Shown: positions 5,592 through 51,172 of the stretch, one piece after another
Layout of the letters: every line of letters starts with the position of its first letter
How positions within the stretch are numbered: position 1 is the stretch's first letter
Source: Isoetes taiwanensis
Lineage: Eukaryota > Streptophyta > Lycopodiopsida > Isoetales > Isoetaceae
Length of the DNA: 64,000 nucleotides
Direction of reading: 5' to 3'
NCBI GenBank assembly: GCA_021234155.1
Contig: JAJEKV010000056.1
Coordinates: 5,578,932-5,642,931 of the forward strand
Notes under the pieces: model-generated
Databases searched by the model: none
Told to the model about the DNA's origin: nothing
Seen by the model: only the letters and a program-made list of their open reading frames with translations
Program-made: the position numbers and the translations under genes

Positions 5592-6119
5592 TTAGTTTTG
5601 ATCGTCTTTATTAACCCTTGGCTGGCTTTTATGAAAAACATAACGTCTCTTCCTTGTGATCAAAGGATGCTCATCGACCACCAAATCTTCCACATGGCCT
5701 TGAGTGGGTCTTGGGGTATGTAGTTGAGTAGGGCATTCCAGACTTTCACCATTCTTGTGTGTAATATATCTAATTGGCCATCTCAACTGACTTTGGCACT
5801 CCAGCAACCCAGAGCACACAATGCAATCACTAGAGCTTCCCTGGGACATGATTGTATCAACTTCGATAAGAAGCTTCACAATGCCAACTCCAAGATGATC
5901 ATCTCCCAGCCTTTCATCATTCACACTATCAAAAGGATCAACTGCAGTTATTATGCCCTCTGCAAATACCGTCTCGCTGCAAGGGTGCAACAACAAGCAA
6001 CCCATCTTCCTCCATTGGAGCCTAGGGCAATGGCCTGTGCTGGGCTTCCTTGGCTCCACTTTGCTCATCTCACATGCTCCCTGAATTAAAGAGCACACAT
6101 TAAAACCATATACAACCAT
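5592..6119 (-). pseudogene. Transposon-associated domain remnant (DUF8039-like pattern)
   Basis: A 175-codon open frame on the minus strand contains GCLLLHPCSETVFAEGIITA, then RLGDDHLGVGIVKLL and finally LRWPIRYI. This order (Cys-x-Leu, a G-x-(I/V) strand, a LGDDH-V-V segment, then x-W-P) is the pattern I associate with a small domain found in plant transposon proteins and usually listed as DUF8039. It is not a full gene: no transposase catalytic core is seen nearby. A similar WP motif occurs at 9113-9290. The family assignment is from memory of the pattern, not a search. Confidence 0.4.
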
Positions 6120-6320
6120 ATATGAATGAGCACTATAGCCATATAACCATTAGAAACCATACAACCATTAAAAACCATTGAAAACCTTATAAACATTAAA
6201 ACATTTAAAACCTTATAACCATTAAAAACATTAAAACATTTAACACTAACATTTAACATTAAAACATTTAACATTAACCATTAAAAAGCATTAAAACATT
6301 ACAACCATTAAAACATAGGC
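6120..6320. repeat. Low-complexity ACCATTAAAAC repeat
   Basis: Irregular repeats of AACCATTAAAAC, ACATTTAACATT and related words fill the interval. Simple A/T/C minisatellite with no coding content. Confidence 0.75.
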
Positions 6321-6340
6321 TTCCCCGAAATCATGACTGT

Positions 6341-6386
6341 GCTGACGTGGCCCTTCGTCAGCGACATCTGACATGGCCACGTCAGC
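6341..6386. promoter_or_regulatory. Inverted repeat of ACGT-core motifs (TGACGTGG...CCACGTCA)
   Basis: GCTGACGTGGCC at 6341-6352 is the exact reverse complement of GGCCACGTCAGC at 6375-6386. Each arm holds an ACGT core of the kind bound by plant bZIP factors. It lies just before the unusual 6.4-15.3 kb cluster. It could equally be the end of a foldback element, since plant terminal inverted repeats often resemble this. Confidence 0.4.
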
Positions 6387-6429
6387 AGTCCAGGTCACGG
6401 ATGGCATGCCACACACGTGACTCTAGGAG

Positions 6430-7290
6430 TGTCATAAATGCCACTTTTTAGAGGTTCGAGGGTGCAGCCAGAAATAACTGCACCCTCTTCCTCTTCTCCC
6501 GCGACCCCTATTCCTTGCATTCCTCTTTGTCTTCCCCTGTTTCGACTCCGGCAGCCGCCTGTTCCTCTGTTCCGCCTTGGCGCTCGATCTGCTATTGCAT
6601 TTCCAGTGCAATCTTATGATTGTAGCGTGGTCGACGGATCGCGACGCATCCAGCGACGAGGTTTTGGCTCAATTTGAGTCAGCCAGGAGAAAGTACTTCC
6701 TAAGAAGAAAGTGAGAAACCTTTTCTGTAAGTTTTGATATTCTCATACTGCTTGTTTATTGTTTTTTTGCAATTCCTTTACTACTGTGCTGCTCCTATTA
6801 TTTTTTTAGAGCCTCTTTATATACCCTGATACATTTTCCAGCCCGAGAAATCCTTACTCTCGCTTTGCAAGCGCCTGTAGCAAAATGGAATCGAACTCTG
6901 CAGCTTCCTCCTCATCCAACAAATCTACCAGGTATTTGTTTTTCTTAATATTTTCTCATCTGTCTGCTGTTTCAAAGCTGCTTCTGCTTTCCTTTTGATT
7001 TGCTTTCTGTTTGTGCTTTCTTGTGTTTAGTTATTGTTTACTTGAATACCTTGAACAGGAATCAGTGTTCTTAGATGCTAATAGTAGTGGCAAGCACCCG
7101 ACTTAGGAATCCTGAGAGATAGGAAGAAAAGTATTGCATAACAGTAAGAGAACTGTCTATGATTCATAAAAGAACAGAACTATGCATGAAATTGCTTTAC
7201 AGAAACTTAAAATAGGAATTGCCATACAATTTGAAAATTTCACTCACAGCATATCCTCCTTTGCAGGAGAGGTGCAGAAGGGAACCCGAC
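6430..7290 (+). other. Possible 5' leader and small exons of the following cluster
   Basis: A short frame ending DEVLAQFESARRKYFLRRK (about 6635-6716) and a possible start context at 6896 (MESNSAASSSSNKST) are separated by intron-like DNA with TTTCCAG and CAG/GTATTTG boundaries. Another acceptor-like TTTGCAG precedes 7267. None has a recognised domain. They may be 5' exons of the decayed gene that begins to be readable at about 9.7 kb; this is inference. Confidence 0.2.
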
Positions 7291-8521
7291 TTTCTCGACT
7301 GGCGAGTCGGGAATCCCTCAGCTTGCCAACAATCCGGAAAGTACAGGCCTTATTCTCGACTCGCGAGGCGAGAACAGGGAAATGTACACTCTGGATTGTT
7401 GGCTGGTTGAGGGATTCCCAACTCGCCAGTCGAGAATAACGCCATTCTTGCATTCTCGACTCGCGAGTTGAGAATGTCATTCCTAGCCAATGCCTCTAAC
7501 CTGTCGACAATACCCGCTAATCTCACACACACCAGTGCCGGCTCTAGTGCATTCTACAGGTGCCTGCAGACAGTCTTAACCACTCTCCTTCAAACTATCT
7601 TGCTCGGATATTGCGAAGGGAAGTGGTTTTGACTGTCTGCAGGCCAACTCTTAGCAAGCCAATTCTCCTCGTATGGTCGCGATGGCCTCTACCGGTCCAG
7701 ACCGTCTCCTTCAACCATCTTCGTCGAATATTGCGAAGGGGATGGGCTCGGACCGGTGGGAGGCCTCTACAACTAACCACGGGGAAACCCGCGAGCTTCT
7801 TTGTGCGCATTCATTCGGCTCGCGAGTCGAGAATGCCTTATCCAGCCAGCACTCCATGTGTACTATCTGGAGTTCTCGATGGCTAAGGCATTCTCGACTT
7901 GCGAGTGGAGAATGCAGACAGGAAGCCCACACTTGCATTCTCGACTCGCAAGTCGAGAATCCCTTAACCGACCAATTCTTACGTGTATGGTCATGTATGG
8001 CCTCCACCCGGTCGAGCCACTCTCCTTCGAACCATCTTCGTCGAATATTGCGAAGGGGAGGGGCTCGGACTGGGTGGAGGCCTCTACAACTAACCACAGG
8101 GAAACCCGCGAGAAGAGGCATGCGCATTCTCGACTTGCGAGTCGAGAATGCCTTAAACCAGCCAGCACTCCATGGGTACTATCTGGAGTTCTCGATGGCT
8201 ATGGCATTCTCGACTTGCGAGTTGAGAATGCCCGGGGAAGCCAACCGCGAGGCCTTTCTCGACTCGCAAGTCGAGAATCCCGTAGCCAGCCAATTCTCCT
8301 GTGTATGGTCGCAGTGGCCTCCACCCAGTCAGAGCCACTCTCCTTCGAACCATCTTCGTCGAATATTGCGAAGGGGAGGGGCTCGGACTGGGTGGAGGCC
8401 TCTACAACTAACCACAGGGAAACCACTGAAGCTTCTTTGTGCGCATTCTCGACTTCGCTGAATGGGAATGCCTTAAACCAACCGACACTTTCGCATTCTC
8501 GACTTCGCAAAGTCGAGAATC
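7291..8521. repeat. Palindrome family I, cluster 1 (12 copies)
   Basis: Twelve copies of a palindrome built from half-site TTCTCGACTCG and its reverse complement lie at about 7291, 7353, 7414, 7451, 7808, 7888, 7935, 8124, 8203, 8254, 8443 and 8493. Copies vary at the centre (CG, TTGC, GCAA, TTCGC) and at the rims (GCATTC/GAATGC, CTTTC). Most keep self-complementarity. The units are embedded in a larger duplicated block with about 300-bp periodicity together with the family II hairpins. Confidence 0.9.
7293..7435. repeat. 43-nt inverted repeat containing palindromes in both arms and loop
   Basis: Arm 7293-7335 is nearly the reverse complement of 7393-7435. Each arm contains one family I palindrome and the 57-nt loop contains a third at 7353-7374. 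The result is a nested foldback. Confidence 0.85.
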
Positions 8522-8810
8522 CCTTTGGCCCGCTCCCACATAGCAATGCCCGCTCCCGTGCATTCTCCGGTGCTACTTGATGGTCTCGACCACTCTCCCT
8601 TCAAACTATATCGCTCGAATATTGCGAAGGGAAGTGGCCCCTGATCTCTCTGCCCGGGCCTTTGGGACGAAACCACGAGGCCTCTACAACTAAGCACTTT
8701 GTATTCTCACGCTTTTAGTCCCAAGTGCCTCTAGCCTATCTGAGCCACTCTCCTTCGAACCACATTCCTCGGATATTGCGAAGAGGAGTGGTTCCGACAG
8801 GGTGGAGGCC
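7563..8810. repeat. Hairpin family II: constant core, variable stems (six copies)
   Basis: Six inverted repeats lie at 7563-7643, 7684-7765, 7999-8082, 8316-8400, about 8587-8640 (short stem) and 8727-8810. Each shares a core with CTCTCCTTC, ATCTT and ATATTGCGAAGG. Outside the core the stems differ but still pair. Copy 1 has CCTGCAGACAGTC opposite GACTGTCTGCAGG. Copies 3 and 4 have a GGCCTCCACCC-type arm opposite GGGTGGAGGCC. The change of both arms together is the sign of a maintained hairpin or of duplication through an inverted intermediate. Confidence 0.85.
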
Positions 8811-8931
8811 TCTCCGACTAACCACAGGAGGATGCATTTGAACCGCATCTCTAGGGCCTTAGACCTAGCCTGATCTATATACAACATTCGAAGAAAACAT
8901 TCCAAGAAAAAACACACCTAAAAGCGGGCTG

Positions 8932-9290
8932 TCACGTTTGCCCCGATCCATTGTTTAGTCTTGGGCATCTCTCAACCCGGTAATTCATCTCTCGAAGCTG
9001 AAGAATGCTCGACAAGGAAACAGTAAATTCGTGGAGCTTATGAGCAGTCCCATGATCTAAGCACGGACGGCATGTTCTACACACAAAATAATAGGCATCT
9101 CTGAAACTCACCTCTTCACGCAGCAATTCCTTGGGCCATTGTATGGCGATCCCCGCGACCTCACCGAGAGTCTTTGCTTCTTCTGTCGGTCTCATCAAGA
9201 GTGCATTCGCATCTAATACTTGTATCAATGCGATTTTAGTGTATCCCGTTCCATGGCGCTGCAGTGTAGCATTCTCGTGTCTGGCAGCTC
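8932..9290 (-). pseudogene. Transposon-protein exon with WP motif (DUF8039-like end)
   Basis: The minus-strand exon 9113-9290 reads NALLMRPTEEAKTLGEVAGI then AIQWPKELL, followed by a good donor (GAG/GTGAGT). The pattern (LL-x-P ... L-x-x-A-x-G-x-x-I-x-WP) matches the C-terminal part of the domain suspected at 5592-6119. Beyond the donor the frame continues open to 8932 without recognisable content. Likely a fragment of a transposon protein. Confidence 0.4.
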
Positions 9291-9536
9291 CTCTCTGCTT
9301 GCTACCTTAGCTCCGTGCTCATCGATCAAATCAACTACTTGCAATAAGACGCGCGGTTAGAAAAAATAAACAGAGCAAGGCGCTGTGAGGAGCTTACCGC
9401 GTCGTGGCACCATTCCGGAAGTCGCTTACAGTCGATGCTCGGCTCCCAACTCTGAGTCGTCAATGCCACAGTGAAGATAAGCTACACTGCGCTCACTAAG
9501 TCCCTGGATGTGATTCAATTTCGAAATGGTGTTTGG

Positions 9537-9579
9537 GCGGGCTAAAGCCGACCGTGCTGTACCCTTAGCCCGCTTTTTT
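9537..9579 (+). other. Hairpin followed by a T run
   Basis: GCGGGCTAA (9537-9545) pairs exactly with TTAGCCCGC (9565-9573), with a 19-nt loop, and six T residues follow directly. It resembles a Pol III stop or a Helitron-like 3' hairpin, but the CTRR end of a Helitron is absent. It lies between the hairpin arrays and the coding cluster. Confidence 0.4.
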
Positions 9580-9739
9580 CCTTAACTGCTTGTATGTCCT
9601 TAAATTCAAAATTAAGAACACGCCCGACCTTTTTTTACGTCAGGGTCCTAAAACCTCCAAGGCGCGGAGGAAGCTTAATTCTGAAGGGTTCGAGCGACAA
9701 AGAAGATGCGAGGGGGCATCTGAGACATGACGACTTCAG

Positions 9740-11016
9740 TCAAAGAAGCGGCCTTAGGAAGAAGGAAGTCTGGTTCTAGCGGCGACAAGAGGAAAAAAAC
9801 GAGCTCCTGGTGAGATGTGAGGTTTTTCTTTGGTCGGAATACCTTTACTCATCCATCCTTTGGTCTTGCGGCATTCACCGGGACTCACTATTGATCACCG
9901 GCCGAACTCCGTTCTTCGTCATCGAGGGATTGGAGACAGAGCTTCTTGACACACCAGCAGATTCTTGGTGGTATGTCGAGGTATCAACAAGTGGGAAGGA
10001 GAAAGATCGGTTTCTCCACCAAAGGGATAAGAAGAGCTCCGGAGACAAGTACAAGAAGGTCGGTGTTGTGCTCTCCGCCTCTCTAGCCCGGTTCAAGCAT
10101 CTATCAATGTTTGTGGAAGATCGCGGAAAAAGAGTAAGTTCTACCACCGCGAAGAAATTATCGGTTTCAAATTATTCTCACTCTTCAATGAGCAAGTCGA
10201 AGGGCACCGACGCCTTTAAACTGTCAGAACCTTGGGTGGAAGGATCTGGAAAGGATGAAGGAGGCCGGGACCCTAACATCCAGGGAGCTTGGAATGGAGA
10301 TTTCCAGAGTGAGGGAAAAACTGTTCAACACAGGGAGCTTCACCTCCAGTGTCTTTGAAGACTCTACAACACTTTCGGCGGTGGGGAGGGAAGTTGTGGT
10401 TCATAAAGAAAAAGGCCCGGACAAGACCATAGATGGAGGAGATGACACCACACGGGAGGAATCAGATGATGAAGCAAGCGAAGATATGGTCGACTCCCAA
10501 TTAATGGATCCAGATGAGCGGTCGGGATTTCCGCGAGAGGGGCTTGAAAAAATGGAGCGGCCGGCTCGCGATTATCCGTTGGGAATAGCACACAAGCTGG
10601 CCGTTGGACATCGGGCGCTTGAAGGTTTGCAACGGAGATGCCGCCTTGTTCAACCATTGGGAATTTAATCCAAACACACATCTTTGGAGATTCGAACCCG
10701 ATGGTGCGACATCCCGCTTGCAGATCCAATGCCCGCGGATGTCATACCTTTCAAACCAAATCGGCCGGGTGAGTTGTTCACCGGAAGTCCGAGGAAGACC
10801 TGAAGGGAAAAGACATCCGGTTCTGGGTAGTAGACGGTCAGCATTCAGTGAGGGCAGCGCAAGTATTGCAGACGGAGAAGGAGGTGCCGCAAAGGATCAA
10901 GGATAGATATGCCAAGCGAGAGTGCAGAGTTCTTGCAGCGGAGACGCCAGCAACCGAGCTGGCCAGCATTAGCCACTGCCAGAACACAATAGCTGCGAGT
11001 GCCAGCTACATAAGGT
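9740..11016 (+). pseudogene. Decayed exon(s) with ParB-like DGQHS domain
   Basis: Coding-like sequence runs through several frames, so there are frameshifts or unrecognised introns. In order: a start-like MTTSVKEAALGRRKSG segment near 9728; a region with VVLSASLARFKHL; MKEAGTLTSRELGMEISRVR at 10255; and in the last part RFWVVDGQHSVRAAQVLQ followed by RYAKRECRVLAAETPATELA (about 10830-10970). A hydrophobic strand then DGQHS-x-x-AA recalls the ParB/sulfiredoxin-like and DGQHR nucleotide-binding folds. The exon ends in a donor AAG/GTAAAG at 11016. The next intron is full of hairpins. The role is unknown; DNA binding is a guess from the fold. Confidence 0.45.
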
Positions 11017-11712
11017 AAAGAACTCTTCGATTCGGTTTTTCTCGCTTCGCCAAGTCGAGAAAGCCTAGCATCCTATCATTTCTCGTTTTTCACTGGGGTT
11101 TCTCGACTCGCGAGTCGAGAAAGCCAGGGGAACACAGAAGAAATTAAAGGATGCGGAGCTTTCTCGACTCGCGAGTCGAGAAATCCCATAGAAATAAAAG
11201 AAAAGTAAACATTCAAGGGACTTTCTCGACTCAAGAAGTCGAAAAACCCCCGGCGATAAAGAACATTCGAGATTAATGGTCGACGACTGAAAGCATCGAG
11301 CCTTCCCATCCTTTCTTCCTCCGGCCTCTTTGGGCAATGTCGCTTTTAGTTTCTATTCTAAGTTGCATCGTTCAAGAGGCGGCAAGAAAGGATTTGGGAA
11401 TGAGCGGTACTTTTCGATCGCCCTTCACTCGCACCATGTTCTCTCCTCTCCCCGGGTGAAGAGCAAAAGCATCGAGCCTTCCCAATCTTTCTTTCCCCAG
11501 CCTCTTGCAATGTCGCTTTTAGTTTATATCCTAAGTTGCATCGTTCAAGAGGCGTGAAAGCAAAGATTTGGGAATGCGCCGATGCTTTTGCTCCGCCCTG
11601 AACTCTCCTATGTTTTCTCCTCTCCTTGTGGGTATTCTCGACTTCGAAGTCGAAAAACCCCCGCATCCTCCTATTTAGTGTTTACTTGGTGTTAGTAGAT
11701 ACTTTCAAGCTC
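11017..11712 (+). repeat. Intron packed with palindromes (family I, cluster 2) and two long hairpins (family III)
   Basis: Between the donor at 11017 and a TTTCAAG acceptor near 11712 there are five family I palindromes (11037, 11099, 11160, 11221, 11633). Those at 11099-11122 and 11160-11183 are perfect over 24 bp. Two family III hairpins lie at 11292-11412 and 11461-11593, with arms of about 40-48 nt and a conserved loop holding GCAATGTCGCTTTTAGTTT and CTAAGTTGCATCGTTC. The two family III copies are also direct repeats of each other. Confidence 0.8.
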
Positions 11713-12475
11713 TAACATTGGGACATTTATTGAATGCGGCCCGTATCCCGACCCGGATCATACACGCCGGCAACAATTGGAAAGCATTGGGTTGTCCTCG
11801 GCCCCTAAAGGAAACAGGGCTCCCTGGATAAGTGGAAGACCTTTGAGTCACTCTGCCCGATATGTTCTCACGGAAGGCCGAGAAGATGATGAGGGGAGGA
11901 TGAAGAGGAAAAGAAGAAGAGAACACCAAGAAAGGGCGGGGAGTCTCTCTCGACCAATATGGCCTCATTCTTAGCACTCGGGGCGGTTTGGGAGAAATGG
12001 ACCCAGATATGGGCTCAATGGACAAGAGGCAAGTCAAGGACGGCAATGGAGAATTTCCATGCAGCCGGGACCCAAAGTTGTTCGACGGGCAATTTATGAA
12101 AAGGATACGAGGGCCGACCGGCAAAGGAAACGCTTGATCTACTGAGGCGAGAATCCTGGATGGAACAATCCTGCTAAGGAAAAGTAGAAGCTCAAAAATG
12201 CAGGGCGCAAAGGATTATGCCACGATCCTAAAGAGAGCGGCGTCGCGTTGGAAGAAGGCATCCGGAGTTCGCAATGTTGCTTCCAATGAATACCATGACT
12301 TTGATTATTACAAGGAAAAGGCTGCCCTTGATGAGGAAGACATGAAGGAATTGAACCGTCTATGTCAACCCTACATCAACACCAAGCTAAAGCGTAACGT
12401 CAAAACCCTTCCCTTCCCTGAACGTGCTATGGCAATTCTGAAGAGGAAGCTTGGATTCGGGGTTCCCATTTAAGG
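11713..12475 (+). pseudogene. Coding remnant continuing the ParB-like gene
   Basis: In phase with the previous exon the sequence reads IGTFIECGPYPDPDHTRRQQ, then a Lys/Arg-rich stretch MKRKRRREHQERAGSL. After a change of frame comes a clean run at 12198-12473 with EYHDFDYYKEKAALDEEDMK and LPFPERAMAILKRKLG. No domain is recognised. The frame change near 11960-12190 suggests decay or an unseen intron. Confidence 0.4.
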
Positions 12476-12522
12476 CCGATGATAGCTCCCCCATTCCCCG
12501 GTAACATTGGGACACAAGGGAT

Positions 12523-13347
12523 TTGGTGGTGGTGAAGGCCACTTGGGCCCGTGGCACTATTTGCCATCAATATGATGGAAGACCCCACCCTTTTTATGAG
12601 AAAGCTGACATAGAGCAGTGGTACAAGACGTGTCTGGACATGACCGACCTGGATACTTTCAGTTTCCTTGTCTTTTGCACGCAAGGCAATCAGACAACTG
12701 TTGTCTCCCAATGGGCAGCTGATATTAACTTCACCAACAAGATCTTGTACTCCATATACGAGCTTGAACATGAGTGTAGACTTGGCTTGCCGAAGGCACC
12801 AAGCTTTGCCAATATAGTTTTGGTTTTGGTTTCAAGATCGGCTGTAGACCTGGACAAGTGGTGGTCTAGCGAACATCATTATCTCGACAGGTTCATGATT
12901 TCTCAAGAGCAGATGGAACCCTGGAAGGGCGGCAGATTTATGGAGGATGTGCCATCGATGGACAAAGTCAGCAATGATGGTGCGACAGGTCCTATACATA
13001 GAATTCCTATCCGGCCAAGGGTTATCAAGTACTTCATAACCAGCTTGGTCGAGGAAGATCAAATTGTATGCGAGTGGTACATGAATGGCCTGTTCTCTCA
13101 GGGGGCTATGCTGTATGGAATGAAACCTATATCCGTGGTTGGAAATAAGGACATGGTTGAAACCATTCGGTCATACCTGGATCTGCTTCATGAGCATTTC
13201 AAAGGGAGGAAGACAAATGGAAGCAGTAAGGACGATGATGACGAAGACAAACCTGAGAGCGAGGGAGAGAAACATGACGGAGACGAGAATCTCGAAGGTT
13301 TAGACCAGAATGCTGCGGAACAAATTCTTGAGAATCTGAAATTGAGG
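12523..13347 (+). pseudogene. Methyltransferase-like protein segment
   Basis: A long clean frame encodes about 275 residues. Near its end are RPRVIKYFITSLVEEDQIVC and then GLFSQGAMLYGMKPISVVGN followed by KDMVETIRSYLDLL. This layout (RP-x-x-x-x-x-F, a strand, a Gly-rich turn normally DPFxGSGT or FSGG, GR-x-x-x-x-x, acidic residue) is that of the last third of N6/N4-type DNA methyltransferases. The catalytic DPPY/NPPY and the normal SAM-loop glycines are not seen, so an active enzyme is unlikely. The C-terminus is acidic (DDDDEDKPESEGEK). It ends at a clear donor (AGG/GTGAGT) and continues into the FCP1-like exon. Confidence 0.4.
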
Positions 13348-13460
13348 TGAGTTCACTTTGCTCTGTCCGTGTTTCTCGACTTGCGAGTCGAGAAACCTTT
13401 CCATTCTCGACTCGCGAGTCGAGAAAACTCGTTTCCTATCTGACATCTCTCATCATTTCA
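13348..13460 (+). other. 113-bp intron made largely of two family I palindromes
   Basis: The intron has a GTGAGT donor and a TTTCAG acceptor, and both flanking frames are open. Palindromes occupy 13371-13396 (imperfect, rims GTTTC/GAAAC) and 13404-13425 (perfect). They make up about half of the intron. Confidence 0.7.
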
Positions 13461-14309
13461 GGAACATCGAACGCAACGACTCCGGATCATTGTCAATATC
13501 TAGTGGCGGTTCACGTCGTGAGGACACTGTACACCCCAAAGACAATCAACAGCAAGACACTGCGGACAGCCAGAAAGGACCTGAAAAATTAATGATCCCG
13601 CATATGGATCCCGACGAACCGGAAATATGGTCAGAGCCAAACTCCAACTGGGATCCAGCTGGTCCCACCAAGCTTGTAATATTTGACGTCAATGGAGTAT
13701 TAGCTGCAGTATACCACGATAAAGACGTCCTTGAGCTTAACACCTCGCAGATCCTGACGAAAACGGAGCATAAAATCGTGTATCCGAGGCCTAGAGCAAA
13801 GGAAATTGTTGAATGGTGCCTGGAACGGGGATTCGAAGTGGCCATATGGTCTTGTATGGCAAAGAAAAATATTGTCAATGTTCTTGGTGTTCTCGGCCTT
13901 CCAGTTTTGAAGTTCAAGTTTGTTTGGGGAAGCGAAAGGGTCGAGCATGTGTCAGATCTCGATCCAGCCATCACAAAGGGGAAGCATATTATGGTGAAAA
14001 GGCTGGACAGGGTTTATGAACAATTCCCGGACTATGGCAAACACAACACGCTGATCATAGACGACTCCGCCTACAAGTGCTATCATAACTTCATAAAATA
14101 CAATCATTGCTAAGACTTATCGACCAGAAGAGTATGAGACGGATAGGTGGCTGTCTTTCGGACTTTGTCCTGTCTTGGCGGAATCCCTCTTTGCCATTCT
14201 TGTGGCCGATGTGATTGCGAACTATCCGAGCCTCAAGGAACCCGATCCAGAGAGCCGCGCGATCATGAAAGCTATGGACGACAAATATTTTGGTGATCAA
14301 GAAGAGTGA
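13461..14309 (+). pseudogene. FCP1-like HAD phosphatase domain, altered and frameshifted
   Basis: After NIERNDSGSLSISSGG the frame encodes KLVIFDVNGVLAAVY, YPRPRAKEIVEWCLERGFEV, AIWSCMAKKNIVNVL and NTLIIDDSAYKC. These match the order of motifs in FCP1/CTD-type HAD phosphatases. The signature DxDx(T/V) reads D-V-N-G-V, so the second Asp, the acid/base in the family, is Asn. A one-base frame change between about 14094 and 14100 leads to TYRPEEYETDRWLSFGL and an end at the TGA 14307-14309. I infer a non-catalytic or dead copy. It is joined by an intron to the methyltransferase-like segment, so one fused polyprotein-like gene is possible. Confidence 0.55.
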
Positions 14310-14399
14310 CCTCTCCTTTTAGATAGTCAAATTGTGTGAATATTGTAAAGAAACGTGAAGAAATGTACTATGTTTTGTAATGAATATACATGTATATTG

Positions 14400-14710
14400 A
14401 GTTTTCGCTGGCTTTCTCGACTTCAGCGAGTCGAAAAGGCATGCTTGTCCCGATTGATGAAACCATTTGTATGTTTGTTTGTGTGGACCGGATGCAGCCA
14501 TAATCTATTATGATAATGGTTGTACATTGGGTTTCCTGGGCCTTTCTCGACTCGCGAGTCGAGAAAGGCACTGCTTGTCCCGATGACGCAACCATTTGTA
14601 TGCTTCCATGTGTGATTGGATGCAACCATATTCTAATGGGAATGGTTGTACTTTGACTTTTCCGGGCCTTTCTCGACTTCGCGAGTCGAGAAAGACTACT
14701 TTTCTTGATT
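14400..14710 (+). repeat. 127-bp tandem repeat with family I palindromes (cluster 3)
   Basis: Three palindromes at 14411, 14541 and 14668 are spaced 130 and 127 bp apart. The intervals share TTGTCCCGAT, CAACCATTTGTATG and GGTTGTAC words. The copy at 14541-14568 is a perfect 28-bp palindrome. The array follows the stop codon of the FCP1-like frame, so it would lie in a 3' UTR or a further intron. Confidence 0.85.
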
Positions 14711-14831
14711 GGATGCCGTTATATGGAATGAATGTTCTCTATTGTAATTTGATTTCACCATTCTTTTCTTCGTTTTGACTAATGGCACCGTAATTGTTAA
14801 TCATAGACTCTCCTTGCTCCAGGTGGTTCAG

Positions 14832-15184
14832 GCACAGGTCCGACACCAGCACAGATCCCGTTCAGGCATCACAGAGACCGCACCAGGCGGCACAGATCCC
14901 GCTCAAGGCGGAAGAGATACCGTTCTGGCACAGATCCCGCTCACGCTACACTCTTGCCCGGCCTTTGGGATAAGGTTGCTCGTGAATGCAGACGCCATGC
15001 ACACGCTCGGGATAAAGAAGAGGAGAAGAAATTAGAGACAGTCCAGAAAGCTCAAAGCATCTTGCAAGCATTGCATAACATCCACGGAGGTTGGGGAAGG
15101 AGCATATTCGATGAAAAGTCAAGGAGGAGAGTGGAGAAGTCGGGTGGGCCAGGTCACCCGGTGGCTCCAGAGGCACCTCCGTGA
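14832..15184 (+). pseudogene. Arg/Ser/His-rich terminal exon
   Basis: After a CTCCAG acceptor a frame reads GGSGTGPTPAQIPFRHHRD, then RTRRHRSRSRRKRYRSG, then ARECRRHAHARDKEEEKKLE and LHNIHGGWGRSIF, ending at TGA 15182-15184. The first part is encoded by short repeats of GCACAGATCCCGC-type words. It resembles an RS-type nuclear, low-complexity tail. It may be the last exon of the cluster gene. No domain is recognised. Confidence 0.35.
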
Positions 15185-15199
15185 GGGCATTCCACACTC

Positions 15200-16390
15200 T
15201 ACAGGTTGCCCCCAAGGCTTACAGTCGGCGTGAAGAAGCGCCGCAAGTTAATCCCCTAAGGTGGACCACCTACCACGATGATGTAACTGTAGTGACAGCA
15301 AGACCGCCATGGTCTCTGCGTCCGATGTAAAATACATTGTACCTATTCAATTTATTAATAAAAATTCTTTTTCAATTAGAGCTTTGGTTTCAATCTTTAA
15401 TGAATTTCCTTTGTTTTAGTTGCATTGTTCTTGTTCTCGACTGGCTATCCAAGGAAAACTGGAAGAGAGCTTGGATGCACAATAACAAACAAAAATTCGA
15501 ATTAAGGATAGTTTCGGGTCGGGGTGCTCCTTTTCGTGTAAATTAACAGGGTTCCGAAAAAAAAGTGGGAATGGAATGAGTCCCACTTTAATTAAATACG
15601 ACTTTAAGGTGACAACTTTAGGAGGAAACAACTAAGTCAAAATCATTTTTATTAGTTTGCATAGAACATTTATCAAGTACTAAACATGAACTCTTTTGTA
15701 ACATGGATGCAATAATAATTGGGATTGAACTTCATAATTGGATCACATAGCCTTGGCATTGATGCCTTCAATGATGCACATGTTTGGATAAATTGAGTAA
15801 GGTGCAGCCTCATTTATATCTCCATACAATTTGGTTAAGTGTTTTCCATGCCTTGGCATTTGTCATATCAAAGAGAAAGCAAATGCAGTCCAATTCTTTC
15901 ACATAATAAGCTATGTCTAATTGTCGTCTGCTTTAGAGTGTGGCTGGAAATGTTGATTGTAGGGATCCTTTAGCTTCTAATTTCTATTGAAATCCAATCT
16001 GTATGAAATACATGCAAGCCATGTAGAACAATAGTCTGCCATGTAGCGCATAGGAGCAATTTTGAATTAAATGAGAAAAGGGGCAATAATATTGCAAAAA
16101 CTATATTCCACAAGGCAAAAATGTCCAGCCTTGTTTTACTTCAAAAGCTCAAGTAATAACTTCACAAATGTTATGACTATCAAAAAGAACTTAATCCATG
16201 GGGCACATCAATTGGATGTTCCAGTAAATAACCATGTCCAGACCATTGTATGTACAACGTATGCGCGTACTACGATGCATTTCGTTTCAATCACCTACTT
16301 AAATGTGCCCATGATTACCTTCATATCAGGAAGTACTTATTGCCCTACATGTCATTGGCTAAAAAGCTACTTTTAAGTAGCCCTCCATAA
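15200..16390. other. No gene recognised
   Basis: AT-rich DNA between the RS-rich exon and the TPS1 remnant. A single half of the family I palindrome (TTCTCGACTGGC) occurs at about 15434. I looked for further TPS1 exons on the minus strand below 16396 and saw none. Confidence 0.4.
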
Positions 16391-24122: not shown

Positions 24123-25608
24123 CAACTCTATTGCTGAAGAATTGACATGGAGATTTTGTTGTACGCAGATGGGGAAGTGATTCAAGATAAGAATACAATA
24201 GGGTGTAAATGGATTTATAAAATCAAACAAGGAACTGATGGGAATTCTATCAAATACAAGGCAAGACTTGTTGCACAAGGTTTTACCCAGAAAAAGGGGA
24301 TTGATTATGAAGACACATTTTCACCTATAGTCAAGATGGCCAGCCTTAGAATGCTTTTGTCAATGGCAAATGCCCAAGGTCTAGAAGTTCATCACATGGA
24401 TGTAACCATTGCCTTCCGTAATGCCAAATTAGATGAAGAAGTCTACATGAGACAACCTCCTGGTTTTGAGCAAGGGAGAGGAAAAGTATGAAATTAAAAC
24501 GAGCAGTATACGGACTCAAACAGTCCCCAAGACAATGGTATCTTTGTATGGATGCTTATTTGAAAGATCAAGGTTTTGCAAAAGAAATGATGGAAACATA
24601 TATCTATTCAGGGAGGAAAAGGAATTTTGCTACATTGCCTTATATGTAGATGATAATGTCATGATTGGTAGTAACATGAATATACTGCAGAAATACAAAG
24701 ACATTTTGAAGAGTAGGTTTGAAATGACAGATTTAGGGGAATTAAAAAAATTCCTAGGGATTGAAGTTCACAGAGATAGAAAAGGAAAAATTATGACTCT
24801 ATCACAGGGACAAAATGTAGCAGGAATGTTGAAAAGATTTACATAGAAGAATGTAATATTGTGGAAACTCCAATGGCTGCTGGAAGCAAGTTGTCTAAAG
24901 ACCAATGCCCTAAAACAGAAAAAGAGAAACTCATAGCACAAAATTTGCTATATCGAGAGTCGATTGGATGTCTGCTCTATTTATCAAACTGCACCAGACC
25001 TGACATCTCTTATGCAGTAAATATCCTAAGCAGATATTGCAATGATCCAGGCATAGGCCATTGGCATGCAGCAAAAAGGATTCTGAGATACCTAAAAGGT
25101 ACAAGCAATTATGGTATAATGTTTAACTCAAACAATCTAGTACTTCAGTCATTTTGTGACTCAGATTGGGGTCGAGATCTTGATGAAAGAAAATCCACTT
25201 CTGGATTTATTCTGTTGTTAGGAGGTGGACCAATCTCATGGAAGTGCAAAAAAACAAAGTTCAATAGCTCTCTCAACTGCAGAGGCTGAATATGCAGCCA
25301 CCACACTTGCAGCAAAAGAAATTGTGTGGTGTAGAAGATTATTAAATGAATTAGGAATAACTCAGGAAGATCCCTTAATTTTGCAGTCAGATAGCACAAG
25401 TTGCATTGTTATGACAAAAAACCCTGTTTTACATGAAAGGAGCAAACATATAGAGTTGGAGATGCATTTTATTCGTGATCTAGTAAACAGAAATATTGTG
25501 CAGGTAAAGTATGTTCAGACAGAAAATCAACTAGCAGATATTCTCACAAAATCACTGGTTGAGAACAGGTTTATCAAGTTGAGGGAGTTTATCAAGTTTA
25601 TCCTCTGA
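24123..25608 (+). pseudogene. Ty1/Copia retrotransposon remnant: reverse transcriptase and RNase H
   Basis: Order along the DNA: GCKWIYKIKQGTDGNSIKYK and ARLVAQGFTQKKGIDYEDTF (fingers), MKLKRAVYGLKQSPRQWY (palm), YVDDNVMIG with the catalytic YVDD, DLGELKKFLGIEV, then SIGCLLYLSNCTRPDISYAV (connection). RNase H motifs follow (FCDSDWGRDLDERKSTSGF, STAEAEYAA, KHIELEMHFIRD, ADILTKSL). Frames change near 24490 and 24570 and again near 25280, and a TAG stops the frame at 24844. Integrase, protease, gag and LTRs are not seen, so it is a 5'-truncated dead copy. Confidence 0.93.
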
Positions 25609-49306: not shown

Positions 49307-51172
49307 TTGGTGGAGATGACAAGATCCAGCCGCAGCCCGCCAAAATGTGCTTCTGGTGCTTCTACCATAGTACATGGTGGAATTGGAAAAGAATATGATG
49401 AAAATTCTCCCAGAATAAGTGTACGTGATGCACACAAAATGGCTCGCGAGGGTGCTCTTTCGGCTCCTGAGAGTTTAGTTTCTTCGGTGCACCTCAATCC
49501 GTTAGTGTTGCCCAATATGTCTTCTAATGGCACGAGTGCGGCTGCCTCAATTGAGATAGGAGCTCCATCTCTCTCTTCTTCTCAGTTACTTGTTCCCGTT
49601 TCTATTCCAACTGTAGTTGCCTCAACTACAGTTCATGCTGCTGCCCATACGTCTGATGATAACACTGGAAGACGTGTTGAACATGTGCTATTGGAAAACT
49701 CTTCTAAGAGTGTCGCACCTCCAATGCATGTTGGAGGTTCCTCGGGTCAGGTGGTGTGCTCTGGCCAATTAGTGCCTCCAACACTCATTGGAGGTTCTGG
49801 GGGTCAGGCAAGACCCTCTTTGTCTTGAAGTTGCTGCTAGGCTAGTAGCTCCTCCAACATAGGTTGGAGGTCCCTCATGTCAGTGCAGACCTCACGTGCC
49901 TGTAAACTGCTCCTCTGGACAGGCTACACCTAATAGTGTTGCACAGGCAGCATCTCCAACATAGGTTGGAAGTTCCTTGGCATAGACTACTCCTAGAGGT
50001 AGTCCTCGGATAGTGGTGCAACCTACACAAACTGGTCTACCTGCAGGGCAAGTGGTACGTCCAACACACATTGAAGGTTCCTCAGGGCAGGCGGAGTTTT
50101 CCCTCTTCCCCCATGGCAGCCTGGGGCGACATCCTCTTCCACCCCCCGAGCTACATCGACCTCACCTTGAAGATCATCTGACACAGTAGCTCGAGTTACA
50201 GGTGTGCGGTTCTCTGAGTGGCTTTGCAAGGGCTTGGCGACTCCCGCCACCTCAACTCGTGTCTCAGAGGCCATTGCCACCATGGTGGATAATAACAAGA
50301 AAGACGTTGTATCCTATCTCCAGCAATTGCAAGCCAAGTAAAACTCCATGGATGTTCACCTCCCATCAGACAAAATCTTTTATGAGGTTCAGGAGTGCAG
50401 GGCAACTTTTGAGCGTTTTGGGGCTCCAGTGATGTAGATTAGCCATGAAGATCATCGACGACATGTGGAGCAATTAGTTGCGTGTTCCGTGGTCTGCCAC
50501 TTCACTGGCCCTTTCTTGGATCTGAAACGCGTGGGATCTTGGCTGTCTGGGCACCTTCATAAGCTAGGGCTTCCTGTTTATCAATCTATCAAGCTTGTGG
50601 CAAAAGATCAGTGTTGCTTTCTTTTGATGTTTGAATCTTCTGAGCCGGCTGCTTAGCTCATAGAACGAGGTGTTGATCCTCTTTGGAAACACTTCTTGCT
50701 CTCTCAGCAGTATGTTCCTGGATCCTTTGCAGCTAAGCCAGATGCCTTACGTGCCCCCTTCTGGTTTGCTATTCAAGATTTTCCTCCAAAGCTACAGGAT
50801 TCTAAGTTTATTTTTGCCATTGCTAATGAGATTGGACTCCATTTGCAACACTCCATAACCAATGGCATCACCAAGATTTGCGTTGCAAGGCCCATTCATC
50901 GTGATTTTCCTCAAATAATTGTTGTCCAGAGCGGGCCCATGTTCTTTCCATTTAAGCTGTCCTTGTTGAATGGTCCTGAGCTAGCTCTCATGTTTCCTGA
51001 AGCCCCTCTCTTTGCTCAATATCGCAAGGTTCACCAACAGGGTCTTCCATCTGCTCCTCCTGCACTCCATGCTCCTAGTTCAGCTCCCACCTCAATGGAT
51101 ATCTCTCACATCCCTGTGCCTGCGACTGCCTCCCTGCTCTTCCAGTTGCAGCTCCCCCACCTCAATCTCTGA
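49307..51172 (+). pseudogene. L1 ORF1-like RNA-binding protein, interrupted by stops
   Basis: The N-terminal part (MTRSSRSPPKCASGAS onward) is Ser/Pro-rich and passes into repeats of the type PP(M/T)xxGGSSGQ (49715-50095). The middle contains SDKIFYEVQECRATFERFGA, VCHFTGPFLDLKRVGSWLSG and then APFWFAIQDFPPKL, the DUF4283-like pattern of plant L1 ORF1 (F-W-x-x-I-x-x-x-P). Stops occur after QLQAK (TAA), after GAPVM (TAG) and after SEPAA (TAG). It is not translatable in one piece. Confidence 0.65.

Follow-up and report, generated by a model that had tools for sequence, protein, structure and literature searches.

Mutually exclusive palindromic words in the non-coding slots of a DNA transposon lineage in Isoetes taiwanensis

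A family of palindromes that recurs within a few kilobases of the Isoetes taiwanensis genome belongs to a high-copy DNA transposon, where it occupies the intergenic region, two introns and the 3' flank and is absent from the exons, while sister families of the same transposon carry other, mutually exclusive palindromic words in slots of the same kinds. These patterns suggest a private recognition word for each family, by which it labels its own DNA. On balance (a probability of about 0.55) we read the palindromes as cis-acting recognition sites of the transposon, the reader of which would most likely be the protein of its own second gene or a complex of that protein with the transposase. We infer that a protein binds the sites, which protein it is and what purpose it serves from indirect evidence, in that sister families with 21-32% identical second-gene proteins carry different words; it is to this extent that the first-pass annotation's suggestion that one of the cluster's proteins binds them stands.

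The palindromes and the element that carries them

The window, a 64,000-nucleotide stretch of contig JAJEKV010000056.1, had been annotated with about 22 palindromes at 7.29-14.70 kb, all in one decayed gene cluster. The family is real: the half-site TTCTCGACTCG (≤2 mismatches) occurs 53 times in the window versus 8.2 expected, a number reached in none of 100 shuffles, and a two-arm scan (arms TTCTCGACT / AGTCGAGAA, loop 0-12, ≤3 mismatches) recovered 20 hairpins between 7292 and 14692. The four copies described as perfect are all present, the one near 14541 being longer (30 bp, 14540-14569). There is also a copy at 15434, which is not the half-copy it was taken for but a decayed full palindrome, reading TTCTCGACTCGCTATCCGAGAA at the matching place in L003. 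Window DNA outside 5614-15606 holds no site of this word with a four-base centre at ≤4 arm mismatches. Confinement to one place was refuted on the genome scale, since the 22-mer TTCTCGACTCGCGAGTCGAGAA (≤3 mismatches) has 12,283 sites in the 1.66-Gb genome compared with 3 for the control, the same pattern read backwards.

The supposed gene cluster turns out to be one copy of a transposon and no cluster of host genes, as judged from its ends, target site duplications (TSDs) and copy number; a giant-virus origin and a host-gene origin were both dropped on these grounds. Family 1, as we call it, has approximately 1,650-1,700 copies of each end, a terminal inverted repeat (TIR) AAGTCGYATTTAATTAAAGTGGG, and identical 4-bp flanks at eight of eight paired ends, two of which share the same flanks with each other and probably represent one insertion that was copied. 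Two shorter elements of 4.1 kb share these ends, differ in most of their interior and still carry the family 1 word. The 3' end of the window copy was found at at least 39 other places among the matches listed, 38 of them extending to ~15602 or further, and at 5614-5616 the window copy diverges from L008 and L009. Its parts are as follows.

5614..15604, + strand: family 1 DNA transposon copy, 5' truncated or interrupted at ~5614, 3' end intact
5616..6149, − strand: remnant of the leftward putative transposase gene (tblastn; 98% identity to L008 piece T1)
7292..8519, no strand: intergenic palindrome array, 10 hairpins at ≤3 arm mismatches
9912..11017, + strand: first exons of the second gene (tblastn, three-family alignment)
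11018..11700, + strand: intron 1, palindromes at 11039, 11100, 11161, 11223 and 11635
11700..13346, + strand: long exon of the second gene, P550 (tblastn)
13347..13462, + strand: intron 2, palindromes at 13373-13394 and 13404-13425
13463..14296, + strand: NIF/FCP1-like phosphatase exon (PF03031), frame broken near 14.1 kb in the window copy
14414..14692, no strand: 3'-flank palindrome array, three units spaced 126-130 bp
14807..15181, + strand: downstream ORF common to other copies (tblastn)
15434..15455, no strand: decayed subterminal palindrome, counterpart L003:9404
15582..15604, − strand: 3' TIR, reading inward AAGTCGTATTTAATTAAAGTGGG

The leftward gene encodes a putative transposase with DUF7869 (Pfam PF25273), which was located in two leftward L008 pieces adjoining T1 (8.2e-11 and 3e-5, the latter below the cut-off). 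The intergenic array also contains further long inverted repeats, and predicted folds over 7201-8600 gave z-scores from -2.5 to -13.4. In the second gene, the first exons comprise an N exon (9912-10442) and an exon with a ParB-like QHS motif (10473-11017), both decayed by stops in the window copy; the predicted borders of intron 1 follow homology and GT/AG signals, and the long exon is also broken here, because its matches fall in two frames. The annotation's claim that the palindromes avoid exons held in seven family 1 stretches, where none of 90 palindromes is exonic (24.8 kb exonic, as covered by tblastn, and 32.6 kb non-exonic).

The second-gene protein consists of a ParB-like motif, a long central part and an FCP1-like domain. 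The ParB-like fold proposed earlier was not confirmed: the QHS-type motif is conserved and is the sole ParB-like feature common to the three families, but neither Pfam nor PDB searches (with the sequence and with profile A2) detected a ParB/Srx-type domain. The same two resources gave no recognised DNA-binding domain in the second gene and no match at all for the long exon. Above the Pfam cut-off the second-gene proteins match NIF/FCP1 only (PF03031 up to 9.5e-21), and UBLCP1 (3shq) was matched at 1.7e-10. The catalytic motif of FCP1/SCP-like phosphatases is D-x-D; it is absent from four of four aligned proteins of other copies, which have D-x-N-G-V with the second Asp replaced by Asn. Single-sequence structure models of two window proteins were unusable (pLDDT 39.6 and 37.7).

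Exclusive words in three sister families

Three sister families have a common gene plan, with a leftward putative transposase relative and, running rightward, a gene made up of a ParB-like, a long and an FCP1-like part. Word 1 of family 1 is TTCTCGACT-n4-AGTCGAGAA, word 2 of family 2 is ACTTCCAAC-n4-GTTGGAAGT, and word 3 of family 3 is AAATCGCGCC-n-GGCGCGATTT. Exclusivity was complete in all eight stretches tested at ≤3 arm mismatches: three family 1 stretches had 15, 17 and 6 sites for word 1 and none for words 2 and 3, four family 2 stretches had 16, 22, 12 and 7 sites for word 2 and none for words 1 and 3, and the family 3 stretch had 17 sites for word 3 and none for words 1 and 2. Like word 1, the other two far exceed their reversed controls across the genome at ≤3 mismatches (1,477 vs 11 for word 2; 2,558 vs 0 for word 3). 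A measure built on even centres gave no excess for family 3 (1 observed, 2.1 expected by mononucleotide shuffle), the word of which has an odd centre. Family 2 has the TIR GACGTATTTAGGAAAATTTAGACTTATTC, found on one copy's 3' end and at the 5' ends of two further copies; family 3 has a perfect 32-bp TIR flanked on both sides by AGGG, offset by one base.

The kinds of slot agree among the families, namely the intergenic region, an intron after the ParB-like part and a place just before the FCP1-like exon, the introns being predicted. They are not strictly homologous, as the palindrome intron of family 2 interrupts the segment that corresponds by homology to the long exon and does not precede it. 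Family 2 also provides the one exception to the avoidance of coding DNA, a site at the same coding place in two copies (L090:1675 and L092:1044). Apparent family 2 sites in or beside a coding repeat (PPTxxGG) were observed at 49717-50057 of the window.

Fifteen loci were taken from a search with NIF, to which L095 and L096 were added as relatives of L089. Homology to the second gene beyond FCP1 was found in five of the fifteen (L089, L090, L092, L097 and L102), and four of these carry a family word; L097, whose second gene is of the family 2 type (63% identity in the FCP1 part), lacks all three words in its fetched 5 kb, a stretch that covers its introns and little upstream. None of the words was present at ≤3 arm mismatches in the other ten loci, which may not belong to the lineage, because they match FCP1 only (L085-L088, L091, L098-L100) or none of the proteins used (L084, L101). 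Other inverted repeats occur in L087, L091 and L099.

Constraint on the palindromes and alternative explanations

The arms of the palindromes are conserved over the centre. CpG transitions numbered 32 in the arms versus 72 in the centre, of 848; those in the arms were not in excess over changes at arm C/G outside CpG (38 of 848), and exons of the same copies showed a 1.8- to 2.7-fold CpG excess. By a scripted criterion, the intron 2 palindromes occupy orthologous positions in 31 of 46 copies; the remaining 15 were left out for a poor second palindrome (ten, two of them with both poor), no donor match (two) or no acceptor match (three). Divergence was 0.065 in these palindromes versus 0.116 elsewhere in the intron (flank/palindrome ratio 1.77, bootstrap 1.25-3.08), a comparison biased toward conservation by the dropping of the ten copies with a degraded palindrome.

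The first-pass annotation had held that self-complementarity rather than the exact word is kept, and had itself named a lack of excess of paired over unpaired substitutions as evidence against this. Arm changes were single in 131 cases and compensatory in 5, which by the annotation's own standard counts against the claim. Its observation that the rims change together survives as a slight excess of complementarity at rim positions 1, 2 and 8 (52 vs 44.7, 45 vs 36.5 and 32 vs 23.3 in shuffles; each p 0.02-0.03, uncorrected; 96 non-redundant contexts of 212 sites), with none at the other nine of twelve positions. Among changed centre pairs, pairing was kept on both sides 15 times versus 67 one-sided changes. 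Many palindromes are nested inside longer inverted repeats, and this nesting, together with the paired centre changes, counts against recognition sites, because simple binding sites need neither; similarity of the arms could also be maintained by gene conversion, given thousands of copies.

With no protein to read them, the palindromes might be by-products of local DNA instability in non-coding transposon DNA prone to palindromes, with hairpin units gained, inverted and lost by template switching and unequal exchange, words drifting in each family and conversion homogenising them. Units are indeed gained and lost at palindrome borders (L001 4897 vs L004 4269/4326), intron 2 arrangements differ between copies, spacers are present in either orientation and make up long inverted repeats, and a ten-copy 154-bp tandem array in family 2 carries palindromes. 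Drift, however, does not predict that slot kinds agree between families with such divergent proteins, nor that the arms are kept over the centre though CpGs lie in both, nor that the word persists in the shorter elements with mostly other interiors, and we regard this origin as possible but doubtful. Selection on an RNA hairpin in element transcripts (a splicing aid, terminator or small-RNA source) would fit the strong predicted folds over the arrays, the location in introns and the 3' flank, and the paired centre changes; it is improbable given the one-sided arm changes, the weak rim complementarity, sense-strand arm changes in which wobble-tolerated C>T is not in clear excess over G>A (41 vs 29), and intergenic arrays that need not be transcribed. 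Neither the arm test nor the rim test supported a constraint on hairpin structure as such.

Dispersed palindromic elements and MITEs are short self-complementary sequences present in many copies in non-coding DNA. The Isoetes palindromes resemble them in all these respects, and their high copy number and differing contexts would suit a small mobile hairpin, as the annotation had proposed. Unlike such elements, they showed no target duplications and no sign of independent insertion: among 47 introns there was no empty site with a duplication, and losses resemble deletions. Each of the 20 loci sampled contains parts of a single transposon family, with low coverage at two of them (15% and 28%); the sample was chosen among the listed exact sites on low-numbered contigs and covers few of the 12,283 sites, and the reference set included short-element and L007-type copies. 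Aligned family sequence covers 57 of 58 sites, and each sister family fills the same slot kinds with a different word. An independently mobile hairpin was rejected on location, orthologous intron positions and the absence of empty sites, leaving it very improbable; rare arm compensation and weak rim covariation disfavour mobile and RNA hairpins alike. A host protein (a repressor, or a replication or chromatin factor) attracted or exploited by the transposons would accord with the lack of a recognised DNA-binding domain in the second gene, but a single such factor would leave the exclusive use of three words by three sister families unexplained, and the window has no word 1 site with a four-base centre outside the element; we consider its use of the sites highly unlikely.

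Known systems and a possible mode of action

VANDAL elements are a known example of plant transposons with sequence-specific self-recognition, and TNPA provides another, for transposition. The VANC motifs of Arabidopsis VANDAL transposons are short, lie in introns, intergenic and terminal non-coding regions, often form tandem repeats that gain and lose units, and differ between related families, and VANC binding is much weaker on coding-region probes (Hosaka 2017, PMC5735166; Sasaki 2023, PMC10398659). The Isoetes words are likewise family-specific, with non-coding slots, tandem arrays and family 1 exons free of sites, the one exception being the coding place in two family 2 copies. In contrast, VANC motifs measure 8-9 bp and are not described as palindromes in the main text of the two papers, whereas the Isoetes sites are palindromes of ~21-24 bp, in a transposon that, unlike VANC-bearing VANDALs, has DUF7869 and 4-bp TSDs. 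The likeness is one of mode of working only, the Isoetes second-gene proteins matching only NIF/FCP1 above the Pfam cut-off.

In En/Spm and other CACTA transposons, an element-encoded second protein such as TNPA recognises repeated motifs that are present in autonomous and deletion-derived elements, and motifs and proteins vary among families (PMC2613891). The Isoetes words similarly occur in full and shorter elements and vary by family, with the second protein as putative reader. TNPA motifs are subterminal in the accessible account, whereas most Isoetes sites are internal (introns, intergenic region, 3' flank); family 1 TIRs do not start with CACTA, and the TSD is 4 bp versus 3 bp in the element described there. 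By TSD and TIR features alone, the transposon resembles Sola2, which has 4-bp TSDs and TIRs of 12-21 bp versus ~23-32 bp here, but the Sola2 TSDs given in the accessible part of PMC3627910 are AT-rich (AWWT and similar), while CAAC, AATG and TTCC also occur in Isoetes. Literature searches on DUF7869 with Sola and on palindromes in Isoetes transposons returned nothing relevant and no paper, respectively.

If the palindromes are family-private recognition sites, each would be the site of a dimeric protein, with two half-sites of 9-10 bp flanking a short centre that varies, and would recur in the intergenic region, introns and 3' flank of the element. The second-gene protein, with its ParB-like motif, long central part and FCP1-like domain, would read these sites alone or in a complex with the transposase, its action extending to the entire element and to those shorter relatives in which the sites survive. 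Such action might shield the element from silencing, as VANC proteins do in Arabidopsis, or assist transposition or expression, as TNPA does. Protein and word would diverge together among sister families, and each protein would therefore act on its own family only.

We also put forward, tentatively and as a conjecture with the odds against it, that this lycophyte transposon lineage contains three or more palindromic address systems, each excluding the others. In every one of them, a fast-diverging second protein would bind its own palindrome of ~21-24 bp in introns, the intergenic region and the 3' flank, where its FCP1-like domain (D-x-N, perhaps a pseudo-phosphatase) would act on transcribing polymerase or chromatin, thereby sparing the element and shorter related copies from silencing and leaving the rest of the genome untouched. 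If true, this would be a second origin of family-specific transposon self-recognition, outside the Arabidopsis VANDALs. The sites could serve epigenome editing as long natural addresses, and with three word-protein pairs in one genome the divergence of such pairs is directly testable. Confirmation of the recognition sites would add a further case of self-recognition, in a distantly related plant lineage and based on another protein and on long, exclusive words.

A transposon copy as the carrier of the palindromes

The first-pass annotation had read the palindrome-bearing part of the window as a decayed gene cluster. Copy number, shared ends and 4-bp flanks instead identify it as a copy (5614..15604) of a high-copy DNA transposon, family 1. 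Genome-wide scans covered 1,658,258,908 bases in 1,110 contigs. At up to 3 mismatches, the 38-base 3' end was found in 1,645 copies and the 30-base 5' end in 1,697 copies, with none in the controls for either. The 3' end near 15604 was common to 40 scored places, including the window, of 2,142 candidates, and the best 150 of 2,765 candidate matches to the long exon were scored in the genome. Eight paired ends had identical 4-bp flanks outside AAGTCGYATTTAATTAAAGTGGG (CAAC three times, AATA twice, and ATTG, AATG and TTCC), and two of these with equal flanks are probably copies of one insertion.

In the rightward second gene, a ParB-like motif lies in one exon, and a long exon and an FCP1-like exon are also present; the leftward gene, a putative transposase, carries DUF7869 in the family 1 locus L008. 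On its left side the window copy breaks off at about 5614, and it keeps one piece of the leftward gene:

Window 5616-6149: piece of the leftward DUF7869 gene

The estimate for a full-length family 1 element is about 12.6 kb, combining 2.65 kb of L008 with 10.0 kb of the window, and a family 3 copy of 12,573 bp comes near this estimate. Three family 1 3' ends on one contig (C903:290265, 308405 and 326461) are spaced by ~18.1 kb, which suggests tandem duplication. A further subfamily (L007 and L069, with L071 and L076) has dense palindrome arrays, with a spacing of 48-191 bp in L007 and L069. Elsewhere in the window, 24138-25608 holds what we take, from ORF reading, to be Copia-type polyprotein pieces.

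Distribution of the family 1 palindrome word

The palindrome family noted earlier in the window was confirmed, with 53 half-sites versus 8.2 expected and 20 hairpins from 7292 to 14692 in a two-arm scan. Its supposed restriction to one place holds within the window, where word 1 with a 4-base centre occurred in the element only (up to 4 arm mismatches), but not genome-wide, where the scan proposed in the first-pass annotation gave 12,283 sites versus 3 for the reversed pattern (up to 3 mismatches). None of 90 hairpins in seven element stretches (24,832 exonic and 32,558 other bases) was exonic, in agreement with the earlier observation for the readable exons; the binomial value of 7e-23 overstates the independence of the seven stretches because they have common ancestry.

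Twenty loci were sampled from the first listed exact word 1 sites, and all 20 contained family pieces. Aligned family sequence covered at least 46% of 18 loci and 15% and 28% of the other two, and included 57 of the 58 word 1 sites. Two 4.1-kb elements, presumably non-autonomous, matched the window element at the ends only, by the alignment cut-offs, and had 3 word 1 sites each (up to 3 arm mismatches). In intron 1 of the window copy there are also long, imperfect inverted repeats that lack the palindrome word (11287-11600; fold z of -9.9 at 11401-11600).

Sister families with words of their own

A genome search with the NIF domain, in which the best 150 of 3,263 candidates were scored, yielded 15 further loci. 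Family 2 (L089, L090 and L092, later L095 and L096) has the word ACTTCCAAC-n4-GTTGGAAGT, found at 1,477 sites versus 11 for the control (up to 3 mismatches, pattern with one fixed centre, genome). Family 3 (L102 with L103 and L104), which is based on one fully read copy, has the word AAATCGCGCC-n-GGCGCGATTT, with 2,558 genomic sites versus 0 for the control (up to 3 mismatches). The family 2 copy on contig C1027 and the family 3 copy on C1031 both have the rightward gene and a transposase relative that points leftward, at 22-54% identity in the former and 29-45% in the latter. The TIRs of the sister families appear related: those of families 1 and 3 agree at 16 of 23 positions.

Counts of words 1, 2 and 3, in this order, were [15,0,0], [17,0,0] and [6,0,0] in family 1 stretches, [0,16,0], [0,22,0], [0,12,0] and [0,7,0] in family 2, and [0,0,17] in family 3. 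Two observations count against this pattern: L097, with a second gene of family 2 type, had none of the three words in the 5 kb examined, and one site lies at the same open-frame place in two family 2 copies (L090:1675 and L092:1044).

Palindrome slots in the sister families (intron borders predicted by GT/AG and open frames rather than by transcript evidence)
L095:979-2496: family 2, intergenic, before the second gene; a 154-bp unit that carries two palindromes, present in ten tandem copies
L095:4008 and 4058: family 2, intron 1
L095:6144: family 2, directly past the long exon
L103:7559-9733: family 3, between the transposase and the ParB-like exon
L102:1084-1453: family 3, intron 1
L102:3564 and 3637: family 3, intron 2
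L102:4876: family 3, weak 3' site

One further family 3 word match, with 6 mismatches, was located at L103:4051. Intron 1 separates the ParB-like exon from the long exon in families 1 and 3 and falls within the region of family 2 that shows homology to the long exon; therefore, the kind of slot is shared, whereas the exact position is not.

Five family 2-like sites (2-4 arm mismatches, 57-105 bp spacing) occur at window 49717-50057, within or next to a coding repeat (PPTxxGG) that precedes an ORF interpreted as a LINE-type endonuclease; these sites may be a codon coincidence. FCP1-domain loci L085-L088, L091 and L098-L100, whose identity to the family 1 protein is 28-33%, showed no match to other second-gene parts and none of the three words, and may represent other elements or host genes. 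Other inverted repeats are present in L087, L091 and L099.

Sequence evolution and the proposed reader

Intron 2 was compared across 47 copies and was recognisable in all but two (L037 and L051). In the divergence test, 31 of 46 copies passed a two-palindrome criterion, and their per-site differences were 0.065 in palindromes, 0.116 in intron flanks and 0.179 in the next exon. The flank/palindrome ratio of 1.77 (bootstrap 1.25-3.08) is biased towards conservation by ten exclusions for a poor second palindrome; the other five of the 15 copies left out had a splice site missed by the script. Palindrome borders showed repeated unit gain and loss, plus tandem duplication.

Both a hairpin and a protein-binding site were considered. 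The earlier annotation had proposed a check for paired substitutions, and the arms showed no excess of these (131 one-sided changes versus 5 two-sided with pairing kept). The centre had 67 one-sided changes, 15 two-sided with pairing kept and 1 without; the 15 point to symmetry of the centre or to inheritance of variants, CATG among them. For the rims, said earlier to change together, complementarity was weakly raised at positions 1, 2 and 8 of 12 and not at the others. Transitions in 212 sites numbered 32/848 at arm CpG, 72/848 at centre CpG and 38/848 at arm C/G outside CpG (14/384, 42/384 and 28/384 in 96 non-redundant contexts). Exon transitions in the same copies were 0.063-0.089 at CpG and 0.029-0.039 at other C/G, and exon transversions were likewise higher at CpG (0.062-0.071 versus 0.031-0.043). 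On balance, the substitution pattern agrees better with a loose-centred site for dimeric binding than with a hairpin.

We infer palindrome binding, as well as the identity and effect of the reader: the palindromes would be family-specific binding sites for the element's own second protein, or for a complex containing it. FCP1-like domains are expected to have the motif D-x-D; four aligned proteins have D-x-N instead. Together with a match to UBLCP1, this is compatible with a role directed at polymerase or chromatin for the predicted protein. VANC proteins bind motifs in non-coding parts of their own transposon family, namely introns, intergenic stretches and terminal regions; these motifs sit in fast-changing tandem repeats, where the proteins induce methylation loss (PMC5735166, PMC10398659). 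TNPA recognises subterminal repeats and is needed for transposition (PMC2613891). The Isoetes element is nearer to VANC than to TNPA in its anatomy; none of the tests run ties its protein to VANC. Within a partial coverage of the literature, we found no published account joining Isoetes, transposon and palindromes, and no title pointing to such a system.

In a genome search with DUF7869 (PF25273), the best 150 of 9,908 candidates were scored. The domain probably marks a very large group of transposons in this genome, which leaves room for further families and words.
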